Assembly (NCBI GenBank): GCA_025359215.1
Contig: JANYHE010000108.1
Location: forward strand, 1-62,636
DNA: 62,636 nucleotides
Reading direction: 5' to 3'
Origin: Hyphomicrobiales bacterium
GTDB lineage: Bacteria > Pseudomonadota > Alphaproteobacteria > Rhizobiales > Aestuariivirgaceae
Within the stretch, counting starts at the first letter, position 1. Each line of letters starts with the position of its first letter. The notes below the pieces were generated by a model. That model did not search any database. It saw only the letters and a list, made by a program, of their open reading frames with translations, and was not told the origin of the DNA. Shown one piece after another: positions 13,445 through 58,951 of the stretch. The translations under genes and the position numbers were made by a program.

Positions 13445-13550
13445 TAAGTTTTCTCCCTCAAAAAATGTCTCGCTTGTTCGGCAACCTAAATATACCTCGC
13501 GAGTAATAGAGATAGGCTAGCACCAAGATGCGTAGAACTTCAACTGAGAT

Positions 13551-34124: not shown

Positions 34125-34757
34125 ATGATCCTTGTAGGCCAATATGACTCGCCTTTTGTGCGCCGCGTTGCTGTCACGCTGCATCACTATCACATGCCGT
34201 TCACGCGGCAGCCACTTTCAGTGTTTGGTGATTTCAAAGAGATGGGCAAGTTAAATCCGCTCGTGCGTGTGCCTGCGCTCATTTTGGAAACGGGCGAAAC
34301 TTTGATTGACTCAAATGTCATCATTGATCACCTCGACCAAGCTGTGGGTCCTAGAGCCTTAACGCCTGCGCATGGGCCAGAGCGGCGGCAGGTTTTGCGG
34401 ATTTGCGCGGTTTCGACTGGCTGTTCTGACAAAACCGTTTCCCTTTATTTTGAACGGCATTTTCACGACCAGAAAGCAGTGAGTGCGGCTTTGGATAAGC
34501 GGCTAGCAATGCAATTGAAAGCTGGCATTGAGTGGTTGGAGCATGAGTGCGGCACGCCGTGGTTTATCGACAATAAGATGACCCAAGCCGATGTTACAAT
34601 TGGCTGCATGTTGAGCCATGTGAAATTGCGATTGCCCGAATTTTTCCCTTCAGATAAATATCCTAAGCTTCATGTCATCGCACGCCATTGCGAAATGATG
34701 CCTGAATTTGATGCGGCCCGCATCGGTGCGAATGAGACAGTCCCTAAAAAGTTATAG
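34125..34757 (+). CDS. Glutathione S-transferase family protein
   Basis: 210 residues. The thioredoxin-fold N-terminal domain (ILVGQYDSPFVRRVAVTLHHYHMPF) has the SPFVRR motif usual in beta/theta-like bacterial GSTs, with the ESxxI equivalent as LIDSNVIIDHLD. A helical C-terminal domain follows. The catalytic residue is probably S8 in the DSPF motif. Substrates unknown. It follows gltX by 18 bases; the 3' end overlaps the convergent PhnD-like gene. Confidence 0.85.
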   Translation: MILVGQYDSPFVRRVAVTLHHYHMPFTRQPLSVFGDFKEMGKLNPLVRVPALILETGETLIDSNVIIDHLDQAVGPRALTPAHGPERRQVLRICAVSTGCSDKTVSLYFERHFHDQKAVSAALDKRLAMQLKAGIEWLEHECGTPWFIDNKMTQADVTIGCMLSHVKLRLPEFFPSDKYPKLHVIARHCEMMPEFDAARIGANETVPKKL

Positions 34758-35507
34758 GGCAAATGCGGGCAGCGCGTTTTCTAATTCTAATATTCTATCA
34801 TAAGCGCCCGTTGGCAACACCGACATACCTTTGAGCAAAAGTGCTTCGCGTGCGGTGCTTAATTCTGGATCATCTAAAGTTTTTTTCAACACTCTTGCCA
34901 GTCCTGCCGCATCGCCAGACCGGGTTACAAAAGGCAGAGCAGGAACAGGAGGAGAGCGTGCGATCTCTACAAGGCCTTCCAATTCCTGTGGGCAATATTT
35001 TTTGGCGAGTGCAACGCAAACAGAATCAATTGCGCAGACATCGGCGTATTTTGTGCGGACGGCTTTGAGTGAATTGCGATGGCCACCTGTTATTTTGACA
35101 CGACGAAAGAATTCACCACCCCGCACGAAAGGCGCAAAAACCAATTTTAGCGCCAGCATTCCAGACATTGAATCTTCGGTGTTGATGGCGGCGTTGCAGC
35201 CATAAAAATCGGGTAAGGATTTCTGATCCCGCGCAAATATTATGCTGCAATAATCTGCGCCTGCACAGCCATCAGCGGCATAATGTGGAGTCGCAATATA
35301 ATTCAGTAACCCTCTGAAATCATGTGTGAATGGATAACCGCAGGTTTGACTGAACATAAGGTTTGGGTTGCGCCATAATTCAACATAGTTCGTCTTGCGA
35401 TCGAGTTCACACTGAACCTCAGCGTGCTTGGCGAAGCCTTGCCAAAATGCATCTGTTGCATCTCGAAATTCAGGCCAATCATACATGGGCAGTGATGCGA
35501 CAACCAT
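34752..35507 (-). CDS. PhnD-like phosphate/phosphonate-binding-domain protein without export signal
   Basis: 251 residues matching the periplasmic phosphonate-binding (PhnD) superfamily: SLPMYDWPEFRDATDAFWQGF at the start and EDSMSGMLALKLVFAPF and TGGHRNSLKAVRTKYADVCAIDSV in the core. There is no signal peptide, and no ABC permease or ATPase gene is nearby. ATG at 35507 after GGAAG. Free-standing members occur in alphaproteobacteria, and a cytoplasmic ligand-binding or sensor role is possible. Function not assigned. Confidence 0.75.
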   Translation of the reverse strand: MVVASLPMYDWPEFRDATDAFWQGFAKHAEVQCELDRKTNYVELWRNPNLMFSQTCGYPFTHDFRGLLNYIATPHYAADGCAGADYCSIIFARDQKSLPDFYGCNAAINTEDSMSGMLALKLVFAPFVRGGEFFRRVKITGGHRNSLKAVRTKYADVCAIDSVCVALAKKYCPQELEGLVEIARSPPVPALPFVTRSGDAAGLARVLKKTLDDPELSTAREALLLKGMSVLPTGAYDRILELENALPAFAL

Positions 35508-41752: not shown

Positions 41753-41840
41753 CGACGGGTGAATTCATTTCAACTCCACGGTTGATTGCGGTGCGGCACC
41801 CACATCGCTATTGTGCTGCAAACAATTATCAGGATCTCTC

Positions 41841-44267
41841 ATGAAGACTTCGGCGCGCGTGGTGGTTATTGGTGGTGGTGTGGTGGGCTGTTCGGTGCTT
41901 TATCACCTCACCAAAGCTGGCTGGACTGATGTGGTTTTGGTTGAGCGTGACATTCTCACTTCCGGTTCCACTTGGCATGCCGCGGGCGGCTTTCACACGC
42001 TGAATGGCGATCCAAACGTAGCCAAATTGCAAGGCTATACGATTGGGCTTTATGATGAGCTGGAAAAGATTTCTGGCCAATCTTGTGGCTTGCATCGCTC
42101 TGGCGGATTGATCTTGGCGGAAACACCTGAGCGTTTGGAATGGCTGAAAATGGCCCATGCGCGGGCCCGCTATCTGGGCCTTGAAACTGAAATGCTTTCC
42201 ATGGCTGAAGCCAAGAAGCTGAACCCCTTATTGGAAGAAAAATATTTTATCGGCGCAATGCTGGATGCTGCTGACGGCAACCTTGATCCTGAAGGCACCA
42301 CCCATGCTTATGCAAAATCGGCCCGCATTGCAGGCGCTGAAATCTATCAGGGCACGCGGGTTACAGAATTGCAGCACCGCAAAGACGGCTCGTGGGATGT
42401 GATCACTGAAAAGGGCAACATTCATGCCGAGCATGTGGTGAATGCCGGTGGCCTTTGGGCGCGTGAAGTGGGCCGCATGGTGGGGCTGGAACTTCCAGTG
42501 CTGGCCATGGCGCACCAATATCTGGTGACCGACGACATGCCCGAAGTGATTGAGTTTAACAAATCACACGGCCATGAACTGCCGCACATTATCGATTTTA
42601 AATCTGAAATTTATATGCGGCAAGAGCGCTCTGGCTTGGTGCTGGGCACTTATGAAAAGGAATGCGTTCCATGGTCGCCTAAAACCACGCCTTGGGAATT
42701 TGGCCGCGAATTGTTTCAGCCAGATCTTGACCGGATCGCGCATAACCTTGAACTGGGTTACAAGCATTTCCCGGCTCTTGCCAAAGTTGGCATCAAGAAA
42801 GTTATCAACGGGCCGTTTACATTTACGCCTGACGGCAACCCTCTTATGGGCCCAGTGCAAGGGGTGCAGAATTTCTGGCTGGCTTGTGGTGTTCTGGCTG
42901 GCTTTAGCCAAGGTGGTGGTGTTGGTTTAGCATTGTCGCAATGGATGGTGAATGGCGACCCGGGCTTTGATGTGTGGGCCATGGACAATGCGCGGTATGG
43001 CGAATGGGCCACACGCAGCTATACCAATGAAAAAGTGCGAGAGACTTATGGCCGCCGTTTCTCGATTCAATTCCCGAATGAAGAATTGCCCGCGGCGCGG
43101 CCCCAACAAACAACGGCCCTTTATGACAAGATGATCGCGCAAGGTGCGGTTATGGGCAATAGCTGGGGCTTGGAAGTGCCGCTTTGGTTTGCGCCAAAAG
43201 GTGTTGAGCCGAAGGACATCGTGTCATTCCACCGCAGCAATGACTTTGCGCACATCAAGGCCGAAGTGATGGGCACCCGCAACGGCGTGGGCGTGACTGA
43301 GATTGCCAACTTCGCGAAGTATCGCTTCACGGGTTCGGGCGCTGAGGCTTTCTTGTCGCGCATGATGACAAACAAAATGCCGAAAGTTGGCCGCATTGTT
43401 TTAACACCGATGCTGAATGAAAATGGCAAATTGATCGGCGATTTTACAATTGCCAAAGCTGCTGCCGAAACATTCTATATGTGGGGTTCCAGCCAAGCGC
43501 AGATTTATCACATGCGCTGGTTTGAACAGCATCAGCCCAAAGATGGCTCGGTGATAATCGAGCGGCTTGATATGGGACTTGTGGGCCTCTCTATCGCCGG
43601 GCCGAAATCTCGCGCCGTGCTGCAAGCGCTGACTGATGAAGATGTTTCAAACGCTGCGTTCAAATTCATGGATCATCGTGCCTTTGAAATCGGACATTGC
43701 CCTGCCCTCATTAACCGCGTCACATATACAGGCGATCTTGGTTATGAAATTTGGGTGAAGCCTGATTATCAGCGCCGCCTTTACGAGCAGATTATCAAGG
43801 CCGGTGCGACACATGGCATTGTGAATTTCGGAATGCGCGCACTTTTGTGCATGCGTTTGGAGAAAAACTTCCCCACATGGTTCCGCGAGCTGCGCCCCAT
43901 CTATGGTGCGTTCGAAGCGGGCATGGACCGCTTTGTTGATCTCACCAAAAATGATTTCATCGGCTTAGAAGCCGCCCGCGCGGAGAAAGCATCCGGTGGA
44001 AAATTACGCCGCGTTTCATTGGTGGTTGAAGCTGGTGATTGCGATGTGATTGGCGATGAACCCATATGGCACAAAGGCAAGGTGGTGGGTTGGGCCACTT
44101 CCGGCGGCTTCGCACATTATCTAAACAAGTCCATGGCGCAAGGCTATGTGCCCAAGGAACTGGAGAACGAAGCCGAATTTGAAATCGAGATCATTGGCGA
44201 AATGCGCAAAGCAACCATTGTGCATGAGCCATTATTTGACCCGAAAGGCGAGAAGATGCGGAGCTAG
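41841..44267 (+). CDS. FAD-dependent N-demethylase (dimethylglycine/sarcosine dehydrogenase family)
   Basis: 808 residues. The N-terminal DAO-type flavoprotein domain has VVVIGGGVVGCSVLYHL, then SGSTWHAAGG, whose His matches the covalent FAD site of dimethylglycine dehydrogenases. A C-terminal GcvT-like tetrahydrofolate-binding domain (about 430-800, with LGYEIWVKPDYQRRLYEQI) captures the formaldehyde as methylene-THF. The ATG at 41841 follows AGGA. Expected reaction: oxidative demethylation of dimethylglycine or a related N-methyl amine. It is convergent with the sarcosine oxidase operon, whose last gene overlaps its stop by four bases. Confidence 0.88.
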   Translation: MKTSARVVVIGGGVVGCSVLYHLTKAGWTDVVLVERDILTSGSTWHAAGGFHTLNGDPNVAKLQGYTIGLYDELEKISGQSCGLHRSGGLILAETPERLEWLKMAHARARYLGLETEMLSMAEAKKLNPLLEEKYFIGAMLDAADGNLDPEGTTHAYAKSARIAGAEIYQGTRVTELQHRKDGSWDVITEKGNIHAEHVVNAGGLWAREVGRMVGLELPVLAMAHQYLVTDDMPEVIEFNKSHGHELPHIIDFKSEIYMRQERSGLVLGTYEKECVPWSPKTTPWEFGRELFQPDLDRIAHNLELGYKHFPALAKVGIKKVINGPFTFTPDGNPLMGPVQGVQNFWLACGVLAGFSQGGGVGLALSQWMVNGDPGFDVWAMDNARYGEWATRSYTNEKVRETYGRRFSIQFPNEELPAARPQQTTALYDKMIAQGAVMGNSWGLEVPLWFAPKGVEPKDIVSFHRSNDFAHIKAEVMGTRNGVGVTEIANFAKYRFTGSGAEAFLSRMMTNKMPKVGRIVLTPMLNENGKLIGDFTIAKAAAETFYMWGSSQAQIYHMRWFEQHQPKDGSVIIERLDMGLVGLSIAGPKSRAVLQALTDEDVSNAAFKFMDHRAFEIGHCPALINRVTYTGDLGYEIWVKPDYQRRLYEQIIKAGATHGIVNFGMRALLCMRLEKNFPTWFRELRPIYGAFEAGMDRFVDLTKNDFIGLEAARAEKASGGKLRRVSLVVEAGDCDVIGDEPIWHKGKVVGWATSGGFAHYLNKSMAQGYVPKELENEAEFEIEIIGEMRKATIVHEPLFDPKGEKMRS

Positions 44268-45055
44268 GCGCTCCGCCCATAGAAGCCCATTTGGTCTTCC
44301 TTGGTGAAGACCACACCGGGCCTGTCGAAATAACTAAAAACGGCAATCAAGCGCTCTTTACTGCCGCCCACAGTGGACACCTTGTGGGCGGTGTTTTTGC
44401 CACGGAACACATTCAATGTTCCGGCGCTCACTTCTAGGGTTTGCACATCAGGATCTTGGCCGCGCAGCAGTTTCGCTACGCCATCATAATTCGGATTATC
44501 TTCAGTGCGCAGATCAGTGCGATAGACGAAATCACCGCCCTGCTCTGGCGCTTGTAGCAGCAATGTGGTGGTGAATTCGCTCCGGTCGAAATGCCAGTTC
44601 AGAGTTTCGCCATCGCGGTAGGCCATCACATTCACACGGGCCAACGCATCGCGCATTGGGAAGAGTGCGTCTTTGTCCATGGTGGCGGCGAGGAACATGA
44701 TGAAGGGAGACCACTCATAAATCCACATAATGGTGCTTTGCGAAATTTGGTCGGCGCACACCGTGTGGTTGATTGTGTCCACCTTCACCAAGGCAGGATG
44801 ATCGGCCGCCAATTCAGGAATTTCTTTGCTAAAATAAATGTTGTGGCTGCGCTTATGAACAAATGAAAGCGTGTCCATCACTGGTTGAATTTCAGCCACG
44901 GCCTTAGCCAATGCCGCAGGTTTCACCAATCCTTCCAAATTGAACATGCCATCATTAACGAGATCAGCTTTGCAGCGCGCGACGAGTGTATTCCATTCTG
45001 GGCTGCCGGGCTTGTCCAGCGGGTAACGTTCAAGGTCCAGAATGTCTTGCATCAT
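44264..45055 (-). CDS. BesD/HalD-like Fe(II)/2-oxoglutarate oxygenase (ArpA family)
   Basis: 263-residue cupin-fold oxygenase. The metal triad is H155-x-D157 (in NWHFDRSEF) and H224 (in NTAHKVS), with R235 likely binding 2-oxoglutarate. Further conserved blocks are LLLQAPEQGGDFVYR and a C-terminal GFYGR. In the BesD/HalD group the halogenases replace the Asp with Gly; the intact Asp here predicts a hydroxylase (or oxidative demethylase) acting on a free amino acid or amine. Its ATG overlaps the soxG stop (ATGA), so it is translationally tied to sarcosine oxidase. The substrate is unknown. Confidence 0.78.
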   Translation of the reverse strand: MMQDILDLERYPLDKPGSPEWNTLVARCKADLVNDGMFNLEGLVKPAALAKAVAEIQPVMDTLSFVHKRSHNIYFSKEIPELAADHPALVKVDTINHTVCADQISQSTIMWIYEWSPFIMFLAATMDKDALFPMRDALARVNVMAYRDGETLNWHFDRSEFTTTLLLQAPEQGGDFVYRTDLRTEDNPNYDGVAKLLRGQDPDVQTLEVSAGTLNVFRGKNTAHKVSTVGGSKERLIAVFSYFDRPGVVFTKEDQMGFYGRSA

Positions 45056-45540
45056 TTAAACTCCAAAGCGGCATCCGTAATGTAATCCCAAATTGATAGA
45101 GCAAATGTGCGCAACACATAGAGATGAAAGATTTCACCAGCCACACAATGTATGAGCACCGGCACATGGTGAATGCCAGTCATGGCGAAAGTGCCGGGCT
45201 TAAATTCGTTCTTGTGAAAATCGATGGCGGCGCATTTGGCCAAAACATCCCGTGCAGGACGGCCGGAGATTTCAATGCGGGTGCGGCTGGAGGAGAGCGG
45301 TGTGACAAAACAATTTGGTGCTTCCACGCTTTCATTCAGCGACCAAATTTGTGTCGAACTCACACGCATGAAATTATCTTGCACAATACCAACGCGGGCT
45401 GGCAATTTGCCCAACGCCTTCATCAAATCTTTGTCGCTGCCAGTATATTGCGTGAGCACGAAATCGGGCGCTTCAACAACCGTAAGCAGATTGCTGGCAT
45501 AAGGCTTGGCGCTGAGCAATGCTGATGAGGCTTTAAGCAT
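45052..45540 (-). CDS. soxG: Sarcosine oxidase gamma subunit
   Basis: 162 residues, the usual size. The gamma family pattern is visible in the central WSLNESVEAPNCFVTPLSSSRTRIEISGRPARDVLAKCAAIDFH and the C-terminal YVLRTFALSIWDYITDAALEF. It forms part of the heterotetrameric enzyme that oxidises sarcosine to glycine with H2O2 and methylene-THF formation. It overlaps soxA by eight bases and the following oxygenase by four. Confidence 0.9.
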   Translation of the reverse strand: MLKASSALLSAKPYASNLLTVVEAPDFVLTQYTGSDKDLMKALGKLPARVGIVQDNFMRVSSTQIWSLNESVEAPNCFVTPLSSSRTRIEISGRPARDVLAKCAAIDFHKNEFKPGTFAMTGIHHVPVLIHCVAGEIFHLYVLRTFALSIWDYITDAALEFK

Positions 45541-48463
45541 GGAGACGTTCTCCCTGCTTATCGATGAAGTGCGGCGAGACGATGCGGGCTTTCACATTCT
45601 CATTCTTCAGTGGAAAAGCGCAAATGATGTCTTCGCCTTCATGTTTCAGGCCACCATTATAAAGTGCGAGTGCAATAAATTTGTTCAGTTCCGTGGACCA
45701 TGTAACGCTGGTGATATAGCCACGGCCATGGCCTTTTATTTCGTCCGTGGCCGCAAATAAAATTGCACCGCCGCGCAGTTTCTTGCCGTCTTCCATGCAC
45801 TCAATGCCAACGAGGCTCCAGCGTTCTGGCGCTTGGCAATCTTCGCGGAAGCGCAGCGCTTTGCCGATATAATCTTTTTCTTTGCCCGCCATTTTGCCAA
45901 GGCCCAAATCATCCAGTGTATTGCGATGATCAAGATCAGCACCGGCCACATGGCCTTTTTCAATGCGCAGCGAGGCCAGTGCTTCAAGGCCATAAGGCTT
46001 GATGCCCAGTGAATCTGCGCTCTGTAAAATATGGTCCCACAGGGCCGTGATATAATTCGCAGGGCAATGCACTTCGTAAGCAAGCTCACCAGAGAAAGAG
46101 AGCCGCAGGATGCGCACGGGCACGCCCTCAAATTCAATATCCATCACACCCATATAAGGCAGGGCCTCGGTGCTCACGTCCGCATCGGGGAAAGCCAGTT
46201 GCAAAGCGCGGCGAGAATTTGGTCCGCTCACGGCCATGCCGCCCCATTCGTCAGTGAGTGATGTCACATGCACATTCAAATCAGTCCAGTGCATTTGCAA
46301 AAGGTATTCAAGCCAGCTCATCACTTCGCCCGCTTGGGCTGTGGTGGTGGTCATGTAAAATTGCGTGTCGGAAATGCGGCTGGTGGTGCCGTCGTCCAGC
46401 ACAATGCCATCATCATTCAGCATCACGCCATAGCGAGCGCGGCCCACTGGCAGTTTTGCAAAACCATTCACATATACGCGGTTGAGAAACTCGGCAGCGT
46501 CTGGCCCCTGCACATCAATTTTGCCCAAGCTGGACACATCGGAAATGCCGACATTCCCACGCACCAATTCCATTTCTTTTATGTAAGCGGTTTCAGGCGA
46601 ATTACCTGCCCACTCATAGAACCATGCGCGCATCCACAGGCCCGCTTCGATGAACGTTGCACCATGGGCCACATGCCAATCATGCAAGGGAGAAAGACGC
46701 TTTGGTTTGAAATGCGCACCCACACTGCGGCCCGCAATGGCGCCAATGGTGAGCGATGCATACGGCGGACGGAAGGTGGTGGTGCCCGCCTCACTCATCG
46801 GCAGCCCGCGCAAATCAGCCATCATAGCAAGCGCATTAATGTTTGAAGTCTTGCCTTGGTCAGTGCCCATGCCCAGCGTGGTGTAGCGCTTCAAATGCTC
46901 CACACTGAGATAGCCTTCTTGGTGGGCCTGTTTAATATCTTTGGTGGTCACATCATTTTGGAAATCAACGAAGGCGTGTTTAGTGTCTGGCACTGCCCAC
47001 TGCGGCTCTATGCTATAGGCGCGGTCTTCACGCATGGCTGGCGGTTCGATTGCATCTAGTTTTTTGTTGAAGCCCAAAATCTCAAGCGCAGCACGCGCTG
47101 CAGTTTCGCCTTCGCGGATGGCCGCCATAACACCGAAAGTTCCGTTCACACCACCTGCGCCATAATGTGTGGCTGCAAAACCACCGGGGATAAACGCCGC
47201 AATTTTCTCATCATATTTCGGTTTAATGCCGCCATGCGAAGTGAGATGCACCACCGGGCTCCAGCCGCCGCTCATGGCCAGCACATCGCATTCGATGGTG
47301 GCCGCATGACGGCCCGCAAGCCGCACGGCACGGATTTGTTTTTCGCCAATCACATCTGCGATGCCAGAGCTTGGGAAAATGGCAATGCCAAGTTGGGCGG
47401 CTTTGGCGAGAAGATCACCAGATAATGTGGCACGTTGTTCAGCAACGGTGACGGCCACATCGGCCTCTGCAAGTTCGAATGCGGTTTGATAAGCGCTATC
47501 ATTATTGGTGACGATAACAGTGCGTTTTTTAGGAGCCACGCCGTAACGATTGAGATAAGTGCGAACGGCGGAAGCCAGCATCACACCGGGACGATCATTG
47601 TTTTCAAACACCAGCGGGCGTTCGATGGCACCCGTTGCGATGATAATGGTTTTGGCGCGGCATTGTTCGAGGATCATCTTGGCCGGATGATTTTGTGGGC
47701 TGCAGTTCAGCACCACCAAGTTGCCGTCATAAATGCCTTGCGCTGTGGTGCGTTTTAACACCCGGGCTTCTGGATAGGATTCAAGTTCAGCAATTTGTAA
47801 TTTGCGCCACTGCTCCAACACTTCGGTGCTGGTGGACAGGAGACTGCCACCCAGTTCAAAATCCTGTTCGGCGAGCACGACACGCAAACCACCGCGGGCT
47901 GCAGTAACAGCAGCAGCAAGGCCAGCGGGGCCAGAGCCGATCACCAACACATCACAGAATGTATAACGCTGTTCATAGCGTGCCGTGTCCACATCAGGCA
48001 CCGCAGAGCCAAGACCAGCGGCTTTGCGGATCACGGGTTCATACATCATCCATGATTTTTTCAGCGGGCCCATAAAGGTTTTATAATAAAAGCCTGCGGA
48101 GAATATCGGCGAAAGTAACTGGTTCACCGCCATCACATCGAAATTGAGCGACGGCCAGGCATTTTGACTTTTGGCGGTGATGCCGCTTACCAGTTCAGTG
48201 GTCGAACCAATGGTGTTTGGCTCTGTGCTGCCACCCGCACCTGTGGTGAACAGCGCATTCGGTTCCTCAAGACCAGCCGCAATCAGCCCCCGCGGGCGGT
48301 GATATTTAAAGCTACGACCCAAAAGGGTTTTGCCATTGGCAAGCAAGGCCGAGGCCAATGTGTCGCCAGCAAAACCGGAAAGCTGTTTGCCATCGAACGT
48401 GAAATTGATCGGCTTGGTGCGGTCGATGTGGGCGGGCTTGGTGGTGCGGCGGAATGCGGTCAT
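45533..48463 (-). CDS. soxA: Sarcosine oxidase alpha subunit
   Basis: 976 residues. N-terminal 2Fe-2S-like fold (INFTFDGKQLSGFAGDTLASALLANG), then an NAD/FAD-binding domain with GSGPAGLAAAVTAARGG (about 170-190). A central region is followed by a C-terminal GcvT-type domain for THF binding (YGVMLNDDGIVLDDGTTSRI and MHWTDLNVHVTSLTDEWGGMAVSGPNSR). It binds NAD+ and, with the other subunits, oxidises sarcosine and transfers the methylene to tetrahydrofolate. Its ATG overlaps the soxD stop by four bases; the repeat at 48478-48612 lies just upstream. Confidence 0.95.
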   Translation of the reverse strand: MTAFRRTTKPAHIDRTKPINFTFDGKQLSGFAGDTLASALLANGKTLLGRSFKYHRPRGLIAAGLEEPNALFTTGAGGSTEPNTIGSTTELVSGITAKSQNAWPSLNFDVMAVNQLLSPIFSAGFYYKTFMGPLKKSWMMYEPVIRKAAGLGSAVPDVDTARYEQRYTFCDVLVIGSGPAGLAAAVTAARGGLRVVLAEQDFELGGSLLSTSTEVLEQWRKLQIAELESYPEARVLKRTTAQGIYDGNLVVLNCSPQNHPAKMILEQCRAKTIIIATGAIERPLVFENNDRPGVMLASAVRTYLNRYGVAPKKRTVIVTNNDSAYQTAFELAEADVAVTVAEQRATLSGDLLAKAAQLGIAIFPSSGIADVIGEKQIRAVRLAGRHAATIECDVLAMSGGWSPVVHLTSHGGIKPKYDEKIAAFIPGGFAATHYGAGGVNGTFGVMAAIREGETAARAALEILGFNKKLDAIEPPAMREDRAYSIEPQWAVPDTKHAFVDFQNDVTTKDIKQAHQEGYLSVEHLKRYTTLGMGTDQGKTSNINALAMMADLRGLPMSEAGTTTFRPPYASLTIGAIAGRSVGAHFKPKRLSPLHDWHVAHGATFIEAGLWMRAWFYEWAGNSPETAYIKEMELVRGNVGISDVSSLGKIDVQGPDAAEFLNRVYVNGFAKLPVGRARYGVMLNDDGIVLDDGTTSRISDTQFYMTTTTAQAGEVMSWLEYLLQMHWTDLNVHVTSLTDEWGGMAVSGPNSRRALQLAFPDADVSTEALPYMGVMDIEFEGVPVRILRLSFSGELAYEVHCPANYITALWDHILQSADSLGIKPYGLEALASLRIEKGHVAGADLDHRNTLDDLGLGKMAGKEKDYIGKALRFREDCQAPERWSLVGIECMEDGKKLRGGAILFAATDEIKGHGRGYITSVTWSTELNKFIALALYNGGLKHEGEDIICAFPLKNENVKARIVSPHFIDKQGERLHA

Positions 48464-48843
48464 AATTTCTTTTCTCCCCTTCTCCCCTTGAGGGAGAAGG
48501 TGGATTGCGCTTTTTTGCGCAAGACGGATGAGGGGTTGGCGGATGCGAGTCCAATTGCCACCACCCCCTCATCCGGCGCATTCGCGCCACCTTCTCCCTC
48601 AAGGGGAGAAGGAACTATCACATTCGTTGCTGTGTTTCTGTTCAGCTTAAACCACTGCCTGCAGCCTAGCGTGTGTTGCCAATACTCCGTGTGCGGGCCT
48701 TTGGGATTGTCGAACACAAAATGATAATCATGCCACGCTTGCAAATCACCCGTGCCATGGGCGGGACGGGCTTTAGTGGCGTCTCCACCATATCTAAATT
48801 CGGCAACGTCGCGTTCACCGCAGTGAGGGCATGGGATTCTCAT
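48460..48843 (-). CDS. soxD: Sarcosine oxidase delta subunit with repeat-derived C-terminus
   Basis: 127 residues, longer than the roughly 90-100 normally seen. Zinc ligands C5, C8, H57 and C61 fit the known structure of the delta subunit, with CPHCGERD at the start and GCRQWF at 60-65. Residues 78-122 are encoded by the palindromic element at 48478-48612: the 135-bp insertion is exactly 45 codons, so the frame is kept and the last five residues (GEKKL) lie beyond it. The stop overlaps the soxA start as ATGA, and the ATG overlaps the soxB stop. The core subunit is probably functional with an artefactual tail. Confidence 0.9.
   Translation of the reverse strand: MRIPCPHCGERDVAEFRYGGDATKARPAHGTGDLQAWHDYHFVFDNPKGPHTEYWQHTLGCRQWFKLNRNTATNVIVPSPLEGEGGANAPDEGVVAIGLASANPSSVLRKKAQSTFSLKGRRGEKKL
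48478..48612. repeat. Palindromic repeat element, copy 2, inside soxD
   Basis: A 135-bp copy of the element at 41-177, with the same outer arms (ccttctccccttgagggaga and complement), the inner gatgaggggttgg segment and small differences in the loop. It sits wholly within the coding frame of soxD, immediately upstream of the soxA start. It could form a large hairpin in the soxB-D-A-G mRNA between the delta and alpha genes and influence translation coupling. Confidence 0.88.
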
Positions 48844-50099
48844 TGCTTATAGGTCCAATTGCCGATGCCAAATTCATCAAGCTCTTTGCCTTTTTCAAAT
48901 CGATCTAAACTGAAGCATTTGTTGAGTTCGTGTTCTTGATCGTTCGCAATGGTGTGTGCATAAGTGAAGCCAGAAGCAGGTGTTGCTTTGAAGCCCTGAT
49001 AACACCAGCCGCCATTGAGATAGAGGCCTTGGGTCGGCGTTTTACAAATGAAGGGCGAACCATCGGGTGTCATGTCTTGAATGCCGCCCCAATGGCGCAA
49101 CAGCCGCATGCGCGACATGAAAGGCAAAAGTGTTGTGGCGCATTCCATCACGTTTTGAATGCGAGGGAAATTTCCGCGCTGAGTGTATGTGTTGAAGCCA
49201 TCGATGTGGCCGCCAAACACCATGCCGCCTTTATCTGACTGCGAAAGATAAAACAGTTCCGCCCCCCAGCTCACCACATGATGCACAAGTGGTTTCACAG
49301 GTTCAGTGACGAAGGCTTGCAGGATGTGACTTTCAATGGGCAGCTTCATGCCAGCCATGGCGGCCAAATGTGAAGTGTGACCAGCCACAGCAATAGCCAC
49401 TTTGTTTGAGAGAATTTTTCCGCGAGACGTTTCAACACCCACAACTTTATCACCATCGCGGATAATATTAGTCACTTCGCAATTCTCGATGATGTCCACG
49501 CCCAGCTGCGAGGCGGCGCGGGCATAACCCCAAGCCACGGCATCATGGCGCACTGTGCCAGCGCGCGGTTGGTGGATTGCACCATAAATAGGAAAGCGCG
49601 CTTCTTTCGAGTAATCGAGATAAGGCAGTTCTTTCATCACCTCATTGCGGTCAAGCAATTCAGCGTCAATGCCATTCAGCCGCATGGTGTTGCCACGCCG
49701 CGCGAAAGCATCCACCTGGCCGGGGCTGACAGCTAAAACCATTTGCCCACGATGCGAGACCATAGCGTTGAAATTCAACTCGTGGCTCAAGCCCTCCCAC
49801 AGTTTCATCGAAAATTCGAAGAAGGCTGTGTTGCCGCCGATCATATAATTAGAACGGATCAATGTGGTGTTGCGGCCCACATTGCCAGAGCCAATGTAAG
49901 ATTTTTCCAGCACGGCGATATTTTTCATGCCGTGGTTCTTGGCGAGATAATAAGCCGTGGCCAGCCCATGCCCGCCACCGCCGATGATAATGGCGTCGTA
50001 AGAAGATTTCGGCTCAGGCTTGGCCCAAGCTTCAGGCCATGGTTCATTGGGGCGGAACGCGTGCCGCACCAGATTGAAAATGTTGTAACCTTTAGCCAT
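48840..50099 (-). CDS. soxB: Sarcosine oxidase beta subunit
   Basis: 419-residue DAO-family flavoprotein. FAD-binding GGGGHGLATAYYLAKNHG is near 39-56. The RHDAVAWG motif (184-191) contains the His expected to carry covalently bound FMN. NGGWCYQGFKATPASG near the C-terminus closes the active site. First of the four sox genes; the gap to the upstream MFS gene is only 30 bases. It carries out the amine oxidation step. Confidence 0.94.
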   Translation of the reverse strand: MAKGYNIFNLVRHAFRPNEPWPEAWAKPEPKSSYDAIIIGGGGHGLATAYYLAKNHGMKNIAVLEKSYIGSGNVGRNTTLIRSNYMIGGNTAFFEFSMKLWEGLSHELNFNAMVSHRGQMVLAVSPGQVDAFARRGNTMRLNGIDAELLDRNEVMKELPYLDYSKEARFPIYGAIHQPRAGTVRHDAVAWGYARAASQLGVDIIENCEVTNIIRDGDKVVGVETSRGKILSNKVAIAVAGHTSHLAAMAGMKLPIESHILQAFVTEPVKPLVHHVVSWGAELFYLSQSDKGGMVFGGHIDGFNTYTQRGNFPRIQNVMECATTLLPFMSRMRLLRHWGGIQDMTPDGSPFICKTPTQGLYLNGGWCYQGFKATPASGFTYAHTIANDQEHELNKCFSLDRFEKGKELDEFGIGNWTYKQ

Positions 50100-50129: not shown

Positions 50130-51344
50130 TCAAGCATGAGATTTTTGAGACAGTCGCGCTCGGCCGCGTTCGGCATATTCTGCAAAAACCAATGCACCAA
50201 TGCCGAATAAAACGAACGCTATTGTAAGAGGGAACATGGTTCCATCATAATAGAGGCCCGCAATGCCGCCGAGGATGACCGAGATTAATGATGAAAGTGC
50301 ACCCGACACGGCGGCAGCCATGCCCGCAATGTGGCCCATCGGCTCCATAGCCATGGCATTGTAATTTCCAAAAATCATACCGCTGGTGAAAAATGAAACG
50401 AACAAAACTATGCCTAACAATGGCAAAGGCGGGTGGCCATTGAATATGAGGCACAACAAAAGCATGACAGCCCAGTCAATTATAAAACCCCACAAGGCCC
50501 ATTTGGAAAGTTTGCGCATACCAACGCGCACCACATATTTTCCGTTCAAGATCATGGAAATGGCAATGCCAATGGCCAGCCCGCCAAACCACAGCGCAAA
50601 GTAATCGCCTTGATTATATTGGTCCGCAAAAATCTGTTGGCAGGTTCCAAGATAAGCAACAAATGCTGAGAAGATAAAGCCCACCGCAATGGTGTAGCCA
50701 AAAGAAATTGGATTACGGATCACCTCAGCTGCACTCGATGCCAACTTTCTCGCCGAGAAAGGCAGGCGATTTTCGGCATCCAAAGTTTCCGCTTGGCGCA
50801 TGGCCAACCACACGCAGCCAATGATGGCCGCCACAATGAAGCCTGTGAAAATGTAACGCCAGCTGGCCACATAAAGCACCAATTGCCCAATGCTCGGCGC
50901 AAATATCGGCACCAGCATGAAGATCGACATCACGAAGGACATGATGCGCGCCATCTCCGCACCCTTGGCACCGTCACGCACCATCGCCATCGACACAATG
51001 CGGGGAGAAGCCGCGCCGAAGCCTTGCAGCAAGCGACCAGCAATCAAAATCGGAAACGATGTTGAGAACATGCACACCAATGCGCCAGCAATATAAAATA
51101 CAAGGCCCGCATAAATCGCGGGCTTGCGACCAACTGAGTCAGAAACAGGCCCGAAAATCAGCGTGCCAATCATCATGCCACCAAAGAAGGCCAGCACGAC
51201 AAGCTGACGATCATTGGCATGTGCCGCATGAAGATCCGCTGCCATAATGCCCACGGCTGGCAACATAGTATCAATTGACATGGCTACTAAAGCGGTGAGA
51301 GTCGCTACTAAAGCAATAAATTCATTGGGGCGGGTGTTTTGCAT
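50130..51344 (-). CDS. Bcr/CflA-type MFS transporter
   Basis: 404 residues from the ATG at 51344 (AGGA upstream). Twelve membrane helices, with GPVSDSVGRKPAIYAGL between helices 2 and 3 and the early DTMLPA motif that mark drug/H+ antiporters of the Bcr/CflA subfamily. It is on the same strand as the sox genes and 30 bases ahead of soxB, so may be in one operon. Members usually export small molecules; a role in export or import of an N-methylated compound is only suggested by location. Confidence 0.85.
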   Translation of the reverse strand: MQNTRPNEFIALVATLTALVAMSIDTMLPAVGIMAADLHAAHANDRQLVVLAFFGGMMIGTLIFGPVSDSVGRKPAIYAGLVFYIAGALVCMFSTSFPILIAGRLLQGFGAASPRIVSMAMVRDGAKGAEMARIMSFVMSIFMLVPIFAPSIGQLVLYVASWRYIFTGFIVAAIIGCVWLAMRQAETLDAENRLPFSARKLASSAAEVIRNPISFGYTIAVGFIFSAFVAYLGTCQQIFADQYNQGDYFALWFGGLAIGIAISMILNGKYVVRVGMRKLSKWALWGFIIDWAVMLLLCLIFNGHPPLPLLGIVLFVSFFTSGMIFGNYNAMAMEPMGHIAGMAAAVSGALSSLISVILGGIAGLYYDGTMFPLTIAFVLFGIGALVFAEYAERGRARLSQKSHA

Positions 51345-51389
51345 TTGGTCCTGAATGTGAGAGAAAGTGTTACTAACAAGGTAGCAGTT

Positions 51390-52595
51390 ATGAAAATTGA
51401 TTCCAACACCCGCTCCGTGCAACTCGACCCGCGTGAGGCGCAGTTCTACGCCAACCCCTACCCTTATTACGACAGCATCCGCGCCAGTGTTCCGGTGTTC
51501 AAATGGGAACAATATGGGCATTGGTGTTTTGCACGCCATGATGATGTGAATGCGCTTTTGCGCGACCGCCGCTTTGGCCGCCAGATTTTGCACGTGGCTG
51601 GCCGTGAGGAGTTGGGTTTGGCGGAACCTGCAGCACATCTCAAAGCGTTCACCGATCATGAGCAGCATTCACTTTTAGAGCTGGAGCCACCCGTGCACAC
51701 ACGGCTGCGCGGGCTGATCAACCGGGCCTTCCTGGCCCGCCACATTGAACGGTTGCGCCCTATTATTACGAGTCTTTCCAATCGCTTGATTGATGGGTTT
51801 GAAGCATCAGGTGAAGTGGATTTGTTGACGGCCTACGCCACCCCCATTCCCGTCATCGTCATTTGCGAATTGCTGGGTGCACCACCCGAAATGGCCGATC
51901 AATTTCTAAAATGGTCACATGACCATGTGAGCATGTATATGGCAAAACGGGACCGCGCCATTGAAGATCAAGCAGTGAAATCGGTTCTCGAGTTCAGTGC
52001 CTATATGCGCGGGCTGATTGCTGAAAAACGTTTGCACCCGCAGGATGATTTGCTCTCGCAATTGGCCGTGGCCAATGCTGAAGGCCAGAAGCTTTCAGAA
52101 GACGAATTGGTCACCACGGCAATTTTAATTTTGAATGCGGGCCATGAAGCCACTGTGCATTCCATTGGCAATGGTGTGAAGGCGATTTTGGAGCGCGGCC
52201 TCAGCGGCCCCATCACCCCTACCCTGATCGAAGAAGTGCTGCGCTTTGATGCGCCTCTGCACATGTTCACGCGCTATGCATTAGAAGATTTAGAATTTTC
52301 CGGCGTAAAATTGAAAAAGGGCGAAACCGTTGGCTTGATGTTGGGGGCCGCCAATCATGATCCAGCACGGTTCGAAAATCCGTCACATTTCAACCCCATC
52401 CGCGAACCAAACCCGCATGTGAGCTTTGGTGCCGGCATTCACTTCTGTGTTGGCGCACCCTTGGCGCGGCTGGAAATGCTCATCGCTTTTGAAACACTAT
52501 TTGCGCGGTTGCCCAAATTAAAGTTGGCGGGAATTCCGCAGTATAAAGATGTTTATCATTTTCATGGGTTGGAAGAATTGCTGGTGCAGTTTTAA
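51390..52595 (+). CDS. Cytochrome P450
   Basis: 401-residue soluble bacterial P450 (CYP). I-helix oxygen-binding segment A250-G251-H252-E253-A254-T255, ExxR at E282/R285 and haem-binding FGAGIHFCVG with C353 as thiolate ligand. The His in AGHEAT replaces the common Asp/Glu-Thr pattern context but E253 and T255 fit. ATG at 51390 is 45 bases from the divergent MFS start, so a shared promoter is likely. No ferredoxin or reductase gene is next to it. The substrate is unknown; N- or O-demethylation would suit the neighbourhood. Confidence 0.9.
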   Translation: MKIDSNTRSVQLDPREAQFYANPYPYYDSIRASVPVFKWEQYGHWCFARHDDVNALLRDRRFGRQILHVAGREELGLAEPAAHLKAFTDHEQHSLLELEPPVHTRLRGLINRAFLARHIERLRPIITSLSNRLIDGFEASGEVDLLTAYATPIPVIVICELLGAPPEMADQFLKWSHDHVSMYMAKRDRAIEDQAVKSVLEFSAYMRGLIAEKRLHPQDDLLSQLAVANAEGQKLSEDELVTTAILILNAGHEATVHSIGNGVKAILERGLSGPITPTLIEEVLRFDAPLHMFTRYALEDLEFSGVKLKKGETVGLMLGAANHDPARFENPSHFNPIREPNPHVSFGAGIHFCVGAPLARLEMLIAFETLFARLPKLKLAGIPQYKDVYHFHGLEELLVQF

Positions 52596-52672
52596 GTTCG
52601 TCATTGAGCCGTCATCAAGTGTTTTTAGCCTTTGATAATTATAATGACGTTCAAACTCACCGGAGGTTCATG

Positions 52673-54442
52673 ATGAACAGTTTCAAGACATTACTTCTCA
52701 CTGCAACAGTGATGACAGCACTTTCCGCCACAGCCTATGCTGAATCGATTCAGTTTGGCTCAGTGGCCGCACCCGTTGATGATGCCGCAAAGCGCCAAGT
52801 TATCGCCACTAACACTGTGACGATTGATGGTGTTGAACAGGCCGTTAAATTTAATCTCATGGCCCGCTCTGGTCAAAAAGTTGGTGACACTCAATTTGGC
52901 GCTTTGGTTGCGGCAAACGGTTCGCCTATTTTCGATAAAGAGGGCAAACCCACGATTTCTGATGCTGCCGATTTCACCTCTATTTTGCCAATCGGCAAAA
53001 AGATTTATTCAATCACCCATTTCGAAGCCCGCCCGGCTGCCATGTATATCAGCGAGATGAGCCAAGCCAGCGATGGCGCATTGACACCCATTTCTACACG
53101 TTCCATTGATTTCTCAAGCATTGGTGGTTTGTGGAATCCATGCGCAGGCTCGGTTACCCCATGGAACACGCATTTGGGTTCAGAAGAATATCCACCGGAT
53201 GCCAAGAGCATCGAAACGGCAACAACCTATAGCGATCTCGACGAAGAAATGTTGTCAATGGTCAAATACTTTGGTGTTGATACGGATGTTGCACCGCTTG
53301 CCGCTTTCAAGGCAGCCTTCCAGCCTTATAAATATGGTTTTCCAACTGAAGTCTCTGTCAACGAAGCAGGCGAAACCAAAGTTGCCAAGCATTATGGCAT
53401 GGGCCGCGTGGCCGTTGAATTGGCTTTGGTGATGCCTGACAACAAAACCGCTTACATTTCAGACGATGGCACCAACACAGGCTTGTTCCGCTTTGTGGCG
53501 GATAAAGAGGGTGATCTTTCATCGGGTCAATTGTTTGCTGCCAAGTGGACGCAGACATCTGCTGAAGGTGCAGGTGCTGCCGATATTTCATGGGTGGACC
53601 TTGGCCATGGGTCTGATGCGGAAGTTTCCGCTGCCCTCAAATTTGGCGTTAAATTCTCTGATATTTTTGAGACTGCAAAATTCAAGGATGATGGTTCCTG
53701 CCCTGAAGGCTTCAAAGCTTCCAATGCTGAAGGCCGCGCCGAATGTTTGAAAGTTAAATCCGGTATGGAAGTTTTTGCATCGCGTTTGGAAACCCGTCGT
53801 TATGCTTCAATGATGGGCGCCACCACTGAATTCCGCAAAATGGAAGGCCAAACTTTTGATAAAGTCGGCAAGCGCATATTTGTTGCCATGTCGGAAGTTT
53901 CGAACGGCATGGAAGACGCTGCCAAAGACAATAAATATGACAAGGGCGGCCGCAACGATGTGAAGTTGAAGAAAAATCCTTGCGGAGCCGTCTATGAATT
54001 GGCTTTAGATGCAAACTATGTGGTGACGGGTGCCAAAAGCTTTCTTGAAGGCAAACCCATTGAATACAAGGATGGCCCTTATGCTGGCCAAACCTGCGAT
54101 ATTGATGGCATTGCCAACCCCGACAACCTCACCTTCATTCCTGGCTACAACACGTTGTTGATTGGTGAAGATACAGGCACCGGCCATCAGAACGATGCAG
54201 CCTGGGCCGTGAATGGTGAAACGAAAGCCATGACGCGCTTTATGACTTCCCCTTACGGTTCTGAAATCACAGGCCTTGATTGGTATTCTGATATCAATGG
54301 TTTTGCCTATCTCACAACAGTGATCCAACATCCCTATGGTGAATCAGATCAGGACAAACTGAAGAACCCCGAAGATGCCCGCGCCTATGTAGGCTACATC
54401 GGACCGTTTCCAGCCTTCAAGAAATCTGCTTCAACGCAGTAA
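52673..54442 (+). CDS. PhoX-family (DUF839) secreted phosphatase-like protein
   Basis: 589 residues. Signal peptide at 1-23 (SFKTLLLTATVMTALSATAYA, cleaved before ESIQF). PhoX blocks are WNPCAGSVTPWNTHLGSEEY, YGMGRVAVELALVMPD and FIPGYNTLLIGEDTGTGHQN. PhoX enzymes are Ca/Fe-dependent alkaline phosphatases, mostly Tat-exported; this one has a Sec-type signal, so a divergent activity is possible. ATG at 52673 sits six bases after GGAGG; another ATG three bases upstream is too near. It is followed by a terminator. Confidence 0.82.
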   Translation: MNSFKTLLLTATVMTALSATAYAESIQFGSVAAPVDDAAKRQVIATNTVTIDGVEQAVKFNLMARSGQKVGDTQFGALVAANGSPIFDKEGKPTISDAADFTSILPIGKKIYSITHFEARPAAMYISEMSQASDGALTPISTRSIDFSSIGGLWNPCAGSVTPWNTHLGSEEYPPDAKSIETATTYSDLDEEMLSMVKYFGVDTDVAPLAAFKAAFQPYKYGFPTEVSVNEAGETKVAKHYGMGRVAVELALVMPDNKTAYISDDGTNTGLFRFVADKEGDLSSGQLFAAKWTQTSAEGAGAADISWVDLGHGSDAEVSAALKFGVKFSDIFETAKFKDDGSCPEGFKASNAEGRAECLKVKSGMEVFASRLETRRYASMMGATTEFRKMEGQTFDKVGKRIFVAMSEVSNGMEDAAKDNKYDKGGRNDVKLKKNPCGAVYELALDANYVVTGAKSFLEGKPIEYKDGPYAGQTCDIDGIANPDNLTFIPGYNTLLIGEDTGTGHQNDAAWAVNGETKAMTRFMTSPYGSEITGLDWYSDINGFAYLTTVIQHPYGESDQDKLKNPEDARAYVGYIGPFPAFKKSASTQ

Positions 54443-57063: not shown

Positions 57064-57373
57064 TGTCCCACCCCTAATTGTTTGAATATGGCCGTTGAAT
57101 GTACCTACAGCAAGGGTGCCAAACCGCTAAATAAACTTGTGCAAACGCGTTGAAGACAATTATTCACAATGTCAAACAGCGGGGTTTCCGTTTGGACGGG
57201 AAACTAATTGCCTGGTTGGAACAGGCAGAAACTGCATATAGTCCTATTTAGGATTTTATGTCAACAGCTATTTTGTCGTTTCTGAATCTTTCTGGGGCGC
57301 TTGGTGCCGCCCTCTCGCATTAGGTGAGGCTAAACCAGCCATAGGTGATAATTTCTCAACCGAGGCAATGCGA
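57064..57373. other. Intergenic gap upstream of the methyltransferase gene
   Basis: 310 bases. It contains a stem gtttccgt / ac-g-ggaaac near 57184-57204 and a small one tccta/tagga at 57242-57253 followed by TTTT. These could be a leader hairpin or weak terminator. I looked for a cobalamin riboswitch and found no B12 box. It probably holds the divergent promoters for the two flanking genes. Confidence 0.35.
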
Positions 57374-58951
57374 ATGACTGACGAACAGCCAACCCCCGCT
57401 CCAACAGGCCGCCGCGCGCGCGGTGGTGCCGATGCGAGGCGTGCTATGCGCGGATCGAACGAGATCAAGCAAGCCGGCTATATTCGCCGCAACATCAAGC
57501 TTTATGAGCCCTTTTCGGATGATCAGCTTGAGTTGATTGAGCACAATGCTGAAACTGTTTTGCAAGAAACCGGGATTGATTTCTACGAAGACGAAGAAGC
57601 CGTTGAAATGTGGCGTGCTGTTGGCGCTGATGTGAAAGCATCAGAGGCAGAAGAGCGAAGGTTTCGCGTTCGCTTTCCGCGCGGATTAGTCCGTTCACTG
57701 ATTAAAACGGCCCCGCGCGAATATGTGCAACACGCGCGCAACCCCGCCAATTCCGTGGTGATCGGCGGCAACAACACTGTGTTTGCTCCGGTTTATGGCC
57801 CTCCATTCATTCGCAATCTTGATGAAGGCCGCCGTTACGCAACCATTGAAGACTTCCGCAACTTTGCCAAGCTGGTTTATATGCTGCCATCGCTACACCA
57901 TGCGGGTGGAACTTTGTGTGAGCCTGTCGATATTCCCGTGGCCAAGCGCCATTTGGACATGATTTACACGCACATTAAATATTCTGATAAGCCTTTCATG
58001 TCGTCGGTGACGTCGGGTGATCGCTCGGCGGATTCTGTCGCCATGTGTGAAATGCTATTCGGCAAAGAATTCGTTGACCAGAATTGCGTGATGACATCGC
58101 TGATCAACGCCAACTCGCCGATGGTCTGGGATGGCGTGATGTTGGGGGCGCTGAAAGTTTTGGCGCGCGCCAATCAGGCCTGTGTCATTTCACCGTTCAT
58201 TGTGGCGGGTGCCATGTCACCCACCACAACGGTTGGAACGCTGACGCAGATTTTAGCTGAAGCCTCGGTTGGAATTGCCTTCACGCAGCTGTGCCGCCCC
58301 GGTGCGCCGGTGGTGTTTGGAACCTTTGCGGCTTCCATGTCGATGCAATCAGGTGCTCCCACTTTTGGAACGCCAGAACCAGCGCATGTGACTTTTGGTG
58401 CCGCACAGCTTGCACGCCGCATGGGTGTTCCGTTCCGTTCGGGTGGCGGGCTTTGTGGTTCGAAAGTTCCAGACGCGCAAGCCGCTTATGAAAGTGCCAA
58501 CACATTGTGGTCAACCATTTTATCAGGCGTGAACTTCTGCCTGCATTCTGCAGGTTGGTTGGAAGGTGGGCTTTCATCGGGCTATGAAAAGCTGATTATG
58601 GATGCTGATCAGCTGACAATGTTCCAGAAATTTGCCGAAGGTGTGGATTTCTCCGAAAATGGCCAAGCCATGGATGCTATCCGTGAAGTGGGCCCCGGGG
58701 CCCATTATCTCGGTTGTGAACATACGCAGAAGAATTTCGAAACTGCATTCTGGCGGTCTGGTCTTGCGGACAATAACAGCTTCGAGCAATGGCAAGATGA
58801 AGGTTCGAAAGACATTGTGGTTCGCGCCAATGCAAAATGGAAACACATGCTCAATGAGTATGTGGCCCCTGCCCTCGATGAAGGTATTGACGAAGGCCTG
58901 AGAGACTTCATGGCCAAACGCAAGGAAGTTCTTCCGGATAACGTGAGTTAG
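57374..58951 (+). CDS. mttB: MttB-family methylamine/betaine methyltransferase, non-pyrrolysine type
   Basis: 525 residues, the length of MttB (trimethylamine:corrinoid methyltransferase) homologues. It has no in-frame amber codon, so it lacks pyrrolysine and should act like the glycine-betaine-type members (MtgB) on a quaternary amine such as glycine betaine or proline betaine. A basic, Arg/Gly-rich leader precedes the conserved NIKLYEPFSDDQLELIEHNAET and the domain ending LDEGIDEGLRDFMAKR. ATG at 57374 after GAGG. No corrinoid protein or reductive activase gene is nearby. Stops 5 bases before a palindromic element. Confidence 0.85.
   Translation: MTDEQPTPAPTGRRARGGADARRAMRGSNEIKQAGYIRRNIKLYEPFSDDQLELIEHNAETVLQETGIDFYEDEEAVEMWRAVGADVKASEAEERRFRVRFPRGLVRSLIKTAPREYVQHARNPANSVVIGGNNTVFAPVYGPPFIRNLDEGRRYATIEDFRNFAKLVYMLPSLHHAGGTLCEPVDIPVAKRHLDMIYTHIKYSDKPFMSSVTSGDRSADSVAMCEMLFGKEFVDQNCVMTSLINANSPMVWDGVMLGALKVLARANQACVISPFIVAGAMSPTTTVGTLTQILAEASVGIAFTQLCRPGAPVVFGTFAASMSMQSGAPTFGTPEPAHVTFGAAQLARRMGVPFRSGGGLCGSKVPDAQAAYESANTLWSTILSGVNFCLHSAGWLEGGLSSGYEKLIMDADQLTMFQKFAEGVDFSENGQAMDAIREVGPGAHYLGCEHTQKNFETAFWRSGLADNNSFEQWQDEGSKDIVVRANAKWKHMLNEYVAPALDEGIDEGLRDFMAKRKEVLPDNVS

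Follow-up and report, generated by a model that had tools for sequence, protein, structure and literature searches.

A BesD/HalD-family Fe(II)/2-oxoglutarate oxygenase gene at the end of a sarcosine oxidase operon and its linkage to N-demethylation genes

The sox operon and its terminal oxygenase gene

The window analyzed here was a 62,636-nucleotide stretch of a Hyphomicrobiales bacterium of the Aestuariivirgaceae (assembly GCA_025359215.1, contig JANYHE010000108.1), and the subject of the study was an Fe(II)/2-oxoglutarate (2OG) oxygenase gene that closes a sarcosine oxidase (sox) operon in it. The minus strand carried, in order, a Bcr/CflA-type major facilitator superfamily (MFS) transporter gene, soxB, soxD, soxA, soxG and the oxygenase gene. 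On the plus strand, a dimethylglycine dehydrogenase (DMGDH)-like gene lay tail to tail with the oxygenase gene, and a cytochrome P450 gene began near the MFS gene (Table 1). The oxygenase reading frame comprised 263 residues, contained no internal stop and began with ATG ATG. Its start overlapped the stop of soxG by 4 bp (ATGA), a Shine-Dalgarno-like GGAG lay within the 3′ end of soxG, and its own stop shared 4 bp with the stop of the DMGDH-like gene that runs towards it. The original prediction had placed a BesD-like oxygenase here, without giving its strand, and had described it as translationally coupled to sarcosine oxidase, with a start overlapping soxG. The intact gene and the overlap were both found, and the overlap suggests the coupling itself.

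Table 1. Features of the window around the oxygenase gene, with strand and supporting evidence
Feature	Position	Strand	Evidence
Fe(II)/2OG oxygenase (BesD/HalD family, HxD), terminal gene of the soxBDAG operon	44264..45055	-	Open reading frame, PF23169, PDB profile matches
H224, distal iron ligand	44384..44386	-	Sequence and homologue alignment
R158, position of BesD Asp143 (binds lysine ammonium)	44582..44584	-	Alignment; BesD numbering of PMC13244439
H155-F156-D157, iron ligands (HxD)	44585..44593	-	Sequence and homologue alignment
ATGA overlap, soxG stop/oxygenase start	45052..45055	-	Sequence
GGAG, Shine-Dalgarno-like, within the soxG 3′ end	45061..45064	-	Sequence
soxG (divergent)	45052..45540	-	PF04268 24.4 bits, cut-off 21; TIGR01375 55.8, cut-off 144
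soxA	45533..48463	-	TIGR01372 1209, cut-off 1164
soxD	48460..48843	-	PF04267 99.4, cut-off 27; TIGR01374 96.9, cut-off 116.5
soxB	48840..50099	-	TIGR01373 629.5, cut-off 529
DMGDH-like flavoenzyme (DAO, FAO_M, GCV_T domains), convergent with the oxygenase	41811..44267	+	Pfam
Bcr/CflA-type MFS transporter, upstream of soxB	50130..51668	-	TIGR00710 198.9, cut-off 200.9
Cytochrome P450	51339..52595	+	PF00067
MttB-superfamily methyltransferase, full length	57368..58951	+	PF06253 745.7 bits

The oxygenase belonged to the HalD family of Pfam (halogenase D, PF23169; 38.7 bits, cut-off 26), beside a weaker signal of the general 2OG-Fe(II) family, and the NCBIfam scan of its sequence gave no match. In a PDB search, the sequence alone barely detected halogenase B. 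A profile built from 55 relatives matched HalB, HalD, BesD and the lysine hydroxylase 7jsd with E-values from 1e-14 to 2e-7; in the same search the range was 1e-14 to 3e-6 with the lysine halogenases included. The predicted family assignment was therefore borne out by both Pfam and the PDB profile.

The sarcosine oxidase set was complete in the order B-D-A-G. SoxA and SoxB scored above their NCBIfam cut-offs; SoxD and SoxG fell below theirs but above those of Pfam. Two further sox loci were present in the genome (C94 and C100), and the tested subunits of these copies were also below the NCBIfam cut-offs (SoxG, 105.8 and 107.6; SoxD of C100, 98.9), which indicated divergence from the model and not loss. 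The full-length genus copies of the DMGDH-like protein were 82–91% identical. Because the alignment of its orthologues begins near residue 11, the likelier start was the ATG at 41841. The true start of the MFS gene probably also lies further in than its reading frame suggests.

The iron site and the substrate pocket

The motif WH[FYWL]D was present in 116/116 full-length homologues, distant ones included. The aspartate in this HxD motif indicated a hydroxylase-type site and not the HxG site of a halogenase, in agreement with the hydroxylation that had been predicted from H155, D157 and H224; all three residues were exactly as claimed. Halogenation by this oxygenase was rejected, with D157 standing in place of the glycine of HxG. 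All 103 clade members had H155, H224 and R235, the arginine that binds 2OG, and the latter two were also conserved in 11/11 outgroup rows. L111, which has Leu at 152 and Arg at 158, is not among the 103 clade rows, and both these counts and the tree were based on copies other than the incomplete or interrupted L065, L069, L093, L095, and L146.

The halogenases BesD, HalB and HalD (6nie, 7u6i, and 7u6h) resembled the oxygenase by profile homology, with the longest match, to HalB, spanning about residues 30–249, and shared with it the two iron histidines and the 2OG arginine. They differ from it in having a glycine, which makes space for chloride, where the window protein has Asp157, and in their lysine contacts, which are replaced in the window protein. 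Unlike them, the window oxygenase is tied to demethylation genes.

In BesD, Asp239, Asp143 and Glu123 contact the protonated amino group of lysine, and Arg77, His137 and Trp241 contact its carboxylate, according to PMC13244439 (JACS 2026). Counting from the iron histidine, Asp143 corresponded to R158 and His137 to L152 in the oxygenase, and Glu123 aligned to A139 in a column with a one-residue gap ambiguity. Arg158 and Leu152 each occurred in 103/103 clade members and Ala139 in 101/103; among the 11 outgroup rows, none had Arg at 158 and three had Leu at 152. The stretches around Arg77, Asp239 and Trp241 aligned poorly or lay outside the PDB profile match.

A lysine (or ornithine) hydroxylase like the BesD-family enzyme 7JSD (named "Hydrox" in PMC13244439) is in the same family by profile and also has HxD. 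Compared with that enzyme, the window clade has Arg, Leu and Ala in place of the lysine-binding Asp, His and Glu. These replacements make lysine an unlikely substrate, and we regard such an activity as very improbable. The clade thus probably binds something other than lysine. The original prediction had assumed action on free amino acids as in BesD; its family argument stands, and it is qualified by the three replaced positions. The lost ammonium contacts fit a quaternary or methylated amine, although they are no proof of one.

Linkage to sox and other demethylase genes

The genus set comprised the window genome and 36 genomes of the same genus. An oxygenase match was found in 27/37 genomes (fragments included) and a soxA orthologue (at least 57% identity, some in pieces) in 32/37. 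The oxygenase occurred in 26 of the 32 genomes with a soxA orthologue and in one of the five without it (p = 0.014, uncorrected for kinship); in that exception (G006), soxG adjoined the oxygenase gene on a contig that ended there. The usual order in the fetched loci was soxB-D-A-G, followed by the oxygenase gene and then by the DMGDH-like gene in convergent orientation; in some loci one or two small genes intervened. Eight genus loci had the oxygenase gene directly after soxG. In four of them the two genes overlapped by 4 bp, in two they were separated by 1 and 12 bp, and in two a longer start made for a larger overlap. The overlap was as in the window in L072, L078, and L079. Relatives thus keep the gene beside sox, and the original prediction withstood its own refuting condition, that no relative would have the two side by side.

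Seven genus loci (L070, L073, L074, L076, L080, L084, and L095) had a divergent LysR gene on the flank of the oxygenase gene that faces sox, ahead of its start. A genome-wide search of 15 genomes, to which that of L095 did not belong, found this LysR in 6/6 genomes with LysR between soxG and the oxygenase and gave no match (E <= 1e-40) in 9/9 other tested genus genomes. Eight of these nine showed soxG-oxygenase adjacency, and the ninth, G016, was interrupted by the end of a contig. Mapped on the oxygenase tree (14 rows; some weak forks), the presence of LysR changed at least four times. Outside the genus, LysR was divergent and directly upstream of the oxygenase in 37/79 gene-called loci and was never on the same strand. 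This suggested that loss of LysR, with capture of the oxygenase by the sox operon, was the likelier direction in the window's lineage.

Outside the genus, few relatives reached E <= 1e-60: they were detected in 9/385 genomes of the class sample and 8/398 of the phylum sample; the G732 and G502 families had them in 35/295 and 10/297 genomes, respectively. All these counts include the own or center genome and matches known before. A scan of named genomes yielded 28 loci, including some in Pseudomonas, Burkholderia, Paraburkholderia, Silicimonas, Boseongicola, and Lentibacter. The outside-genus set consisted of the 84 loci at 43% identity or more, 11 distant rows lying below that value. Demethylase neighbors were scored by tblastn in the fetched stretches (about 10 kb), independent of gene calls, and gene order was taken from a codon-model gene caller.

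A Sox, DMGDH-like, MttB or Rieske gene was near the oxygenase in 17/84 outside-genus loci, compared with 0/40 control regions (p = 7e-4). When paired by genome, the numbers were 10/39 and 0/39 (p = 5e-4). The 84 loci included one duplicate genome (L124 = L051) and sets of close relatives; with these removed by collapsing at 80% identity, and query-source loci uncounted, 15/61 loci were near demethylase genes (p = 2e-4). The link between the oxygenase and N-demethylation exceeds chance and is a real, conserved gene partnership. At most seven loci had two or more kinds of demethylase, as L143 was one region matched by two queries.

The strongest demethylase-linked loci were L153, L123, L142, and L063. 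L153 grouped DMGDH-like, MttB, Ldh2, M24, LysR, oxygenase, Rieske and Opp importer genes; beyond that group lay part of a soxB gene (63%), cut by the fetched edge. L063 encoded an oxygenase of 53% identity together with a DMGDH-like gene (78%) and soxBDAG in a different order, and its Rieske gene was 6 kb off. Across the 84 loci, the commonest neighbors were LysR (46), a DddP-like M24 gene (24) and an SBP3-type binding protein (14); Opp-type importers were beside the oxygenase in 7/84.

In the tree, 17 sox-associated rows fell inside a 28-row group (SH-aLRT 97), which also held a 9-row Rieske/Opp group (including L087, L153, L035, L122, and L123) and L119 with L121. The tree left the branching order of these three parts unresolved. 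A distant HxD subfamily with 31–35% identity was represented by L037 and Enterobacterales plasmids; Pantoea accounted for 70 of the 92 plasmid records with a match, and DUF2817 was annotated beside the gene in several of 20 listed rows, the loci that were read being L037 and L041.

Other genes of the window were also found near the cluster elsewhere. MFS and P450 homologues adjoined the sox-oxygenase cluster across much of the genus, the MFS gene upstream of soxB, and a DppA-like amidase gene was beside it in L071, L072, L077, and L093. The P450, the MFS transporter and the amidase are possibly further members of the same pathway. The MttB-superfamily gene of the window was 12 kb from the oxygenase, and MttB-like genes were near the oxygenase in other lineages. 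Between the P450 and MttB genes was a PhoX-type alkaline phosphatase gene (52604–54442, plus strand). A phosphonate-type binding protein of 251 aa was encoded at 34752–35507 (minus strand), and its homologue was near the oxygenase-M24 pair in L052 and L054.

Proposed function and candidate substrates

Here we propose, with a probability of about one half, that the oxygenase hydroxylates or oxidatively demethylates a betaine-like, N-methylated amino acid taken up by the cell and works alongside flavin demethylases. The enzyme would turn over 2OG and put oxygen into this small molecule in a degradation pathway, oxidizing and not halogenating it. The attack might be on a carbon of a ring or chain, or on an N-methyl group, which would then be released as formaldehyde. 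Further methyl groups of the same or a derived molecule would be taken off, within one shared pathway, by the Sox and DMGDH-like flavoenzymes, and in relatives MttB or Rieske enzymes may share the methyl removal. In the ancestral state, the oxygenase was probably controlled by LysR and had an importer of its own; the lineage of the window would then have lost LysR, and the oxygenase would have come under sox expression. An N-methyl compound was favored because related loci add Rieske, MttB, DMGDH-like and Sox genes. That part of the original prediction therefore gained support; the oxygenase may act on the compound itself or on an intermediate.

Among the closest described systems was the Pseudomonas glycine betaine route, in which GbcAB, DgcAB and SoxBDAG carry out a stepwise N-demethylation ending in SoxBDAG (PMC8079746). 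The Rieske, DMGDH-like and Sox components around the oxygenase resemble it. The available text of that source names no 2OG oxygenase in the route, whereas the sox operon of the window ends in one. Among the matches listed in the open-licence PMC literature, none described this oxygenase clade or a sox operon that includes a 2OG oxygenase, and the earlier statement that no such function had been described is uncontradicted there.

Several points weigh against the proposed function. Within the genus, five genomes carried other-branch oxygenases on contigs without sox (L087 in G011, L088 in G020, L089 in G028, L091 in G033, and L085 in G035), and six members with a soxA orthologue had no oxygenase match, which indicated that a Sox-like enzyme can do without the oxygenase. 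Outside the genus, 67 of the 84 loci had no recognized demethylase gene in the fetched stretch (some stretches were short), and in Pseudomonas and Burkholderia the constant partners of the oxygenase were LysR and a binding protein. The controls, one region per genome, were drawn from 39 outside genomes and one genus genome, with no contribution from the named genomes of Pseudomonas or Burkholderia, and we chose the thresholds ourselves. The argument about the pocket is based on a sequence alignment. In addition, the Rieske neighbors are unusual. Group V Rieske enzymes (CntA and the stachydrine demethylase Stc2) have a bridging Glu and a cysteine pair, Cys206/Cys209 in CntA, as stated in PMC10952381. 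The carnitine monooxygenase CntA was the nearest solved relative of the L035 Rieske neighbor. In 9/9 Rieske genes near the oxygenase (L035, L054, L063, L087, L090, L109, L122, L123, and L153) the bridging Glu was kept and the cysteine pair was absent, suggesting that they are not textbook members; the more distant L075 Rieske protein (27%) has the pair.

These observations can also be explained by a linkage of convenience, in which the oxygenase acts on an unrelated amino acid and shares with sox nothing but an expression unit. The many loci lacking a demethylase gene are consistent with it, as are the separate LysR and importer that the oxygenase has elsewhere and the copies away from sox in the five genus members. 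We consider it unlikely, since it is opposed by the difference from the controls in both the full and the paired counts, by gene orders that differ among L063, L153, L142, and L123, and by the coincidence of LysR loss with soxG adjacency.

A different role in the same neighborhood would be that of a feeder: by cleaving or hydroxylating some larger molecule, the oxygenase would liberate glycine betaine, dimethylglycine or sarcosine, with the DMGDH-like and Sox proteins being ordinary enzymes of the glycine betaine route. It is consistent with the scores of SoxA and SoxB above the sarcosine oxidase family cut-offs, with the MttB-like, DMGDH-like and Sox genes as a plausible betaine-to-glycine set, and with G002 and G024, which have the sox plus DMGDH-like block and no oxygenase match. 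However, the window SoxG was the lowest-scoring of the three copies in the genome, and this, together with the two further sox loci, hinted at a different substrate. We regard the feeder role as doubtful.

The neighbor genes in three branches hinted at different substrates: histidine compounds (hut genes, MIO-type lyase), cyclic imino acids (enolases, Ldh2) and onium zwitterions (DddP-like M24, CntA-like Rieske). Common to the branches was the uptake of small zwitterions, and N-demethylation was common to part of them.

In the first branch, the substrate could be hercynine, ergothioneine or N-methylhistidine, with the oxygenase helping its conversion to histidine or urocanate. One related group (L050, L051, L056, L058, and L068) had hut genes close to the oxygenase, and L055 and L064 also had them there, differently arranged. 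L054 encoded an MIO-type lyase (12178–13677) two genes from the oxygenase, the nearest PDB relative of which was ergothionase (a weak match, 149 bits), and homologues of the lyase were close to the oxygenase and M24 genes in L139 and L148. The Pseudomonas loci added a LAO/His-type binding protein that was below its family cut-off. On the other side, the hut adjacency amounted to three independent cases in 61 loci, with a p-value of 0.003 that uses our own estimate of hut density, and the histidase of L051 was an ordinary one. Moreover, urocanase had no match in the window genome, which is 99.2% complete, and this weakened a histidine-derived substrate. We consider such a substrate rather improbable for the window oxygenase. 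M24 also had no match at E <= 1e-60 in this genome; thus, neither urocanase nor M24 seems to be needed here.

In the second branch, the Ldh2 gene of L035, a type seen in few lineages, had a delta1-piperideine-2-carboxylate reductase as its nearest entry. Two MR/MLE-type enolase-superfamily genes and an Opp importer followed the oxygenase in L112–L114, and a GntR regulator was called at the same place in L112 and L114. A cyclic imino acid was kept as a candidate substrate, as a possibility only.

In the third branch, the M24 neighbor reached 387 bits against the NCBIfam DddP cut-off of 600. Its PDB matches, 4b28 and 4rzy, are titled M24 peptidases, and we take them to be DddP, an M24-type dimethylsulfoniopropionate (DMSP) lyase. 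DMSP was rejected as a substrate, the M24 neighbor being short of that cut-off. In G042, a genome without an oxygenase match, a DMGDH-like (57%) and a DddP-like M24 gene (52%) were 1.6 kb apart (C45, 20731–26001), which suggests that these two genes belong together. Trimethyllysine or methyllysine, suggested by the family and the LAO-type binding protein, was also rejected, as the acidic lysine contacts are gone; none of the papers listed for this substrate was relevant.

Overall, the original interpretation was partly supported. The pathway reading, with a betaine-like compound oxidized by the oxygenase and demethylated by its partners, is well supported as an association and unproved as a function. 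More tentatively, the whole HxD clade of the BesD family may have moved from amino acid tailoring to a 2OG-dependent entry step in the breakdown of betaines or N-methyl amino acids. There it might remove N-methyl groups oxidatively from free metabolites, as a counterpart to the known demethylases of the Rieske, corrinoid and flavin types. The varied arrangements in the relatives point to an undescribed breakdown route for N-methylated natural compounds. Betaines and N-methylated osmolytes matter as carbon and nitrogen compounds both in soils and in the sea, and research is still clarifying how they are broken down. If the proposed function is true, proteins that family models (PF23169) file with the halogenases would belong to the breakdown of N-methyl compounds, and a family used to engineer C-H functionalization would gain a natural clade with a rebuilt substrate pocket.

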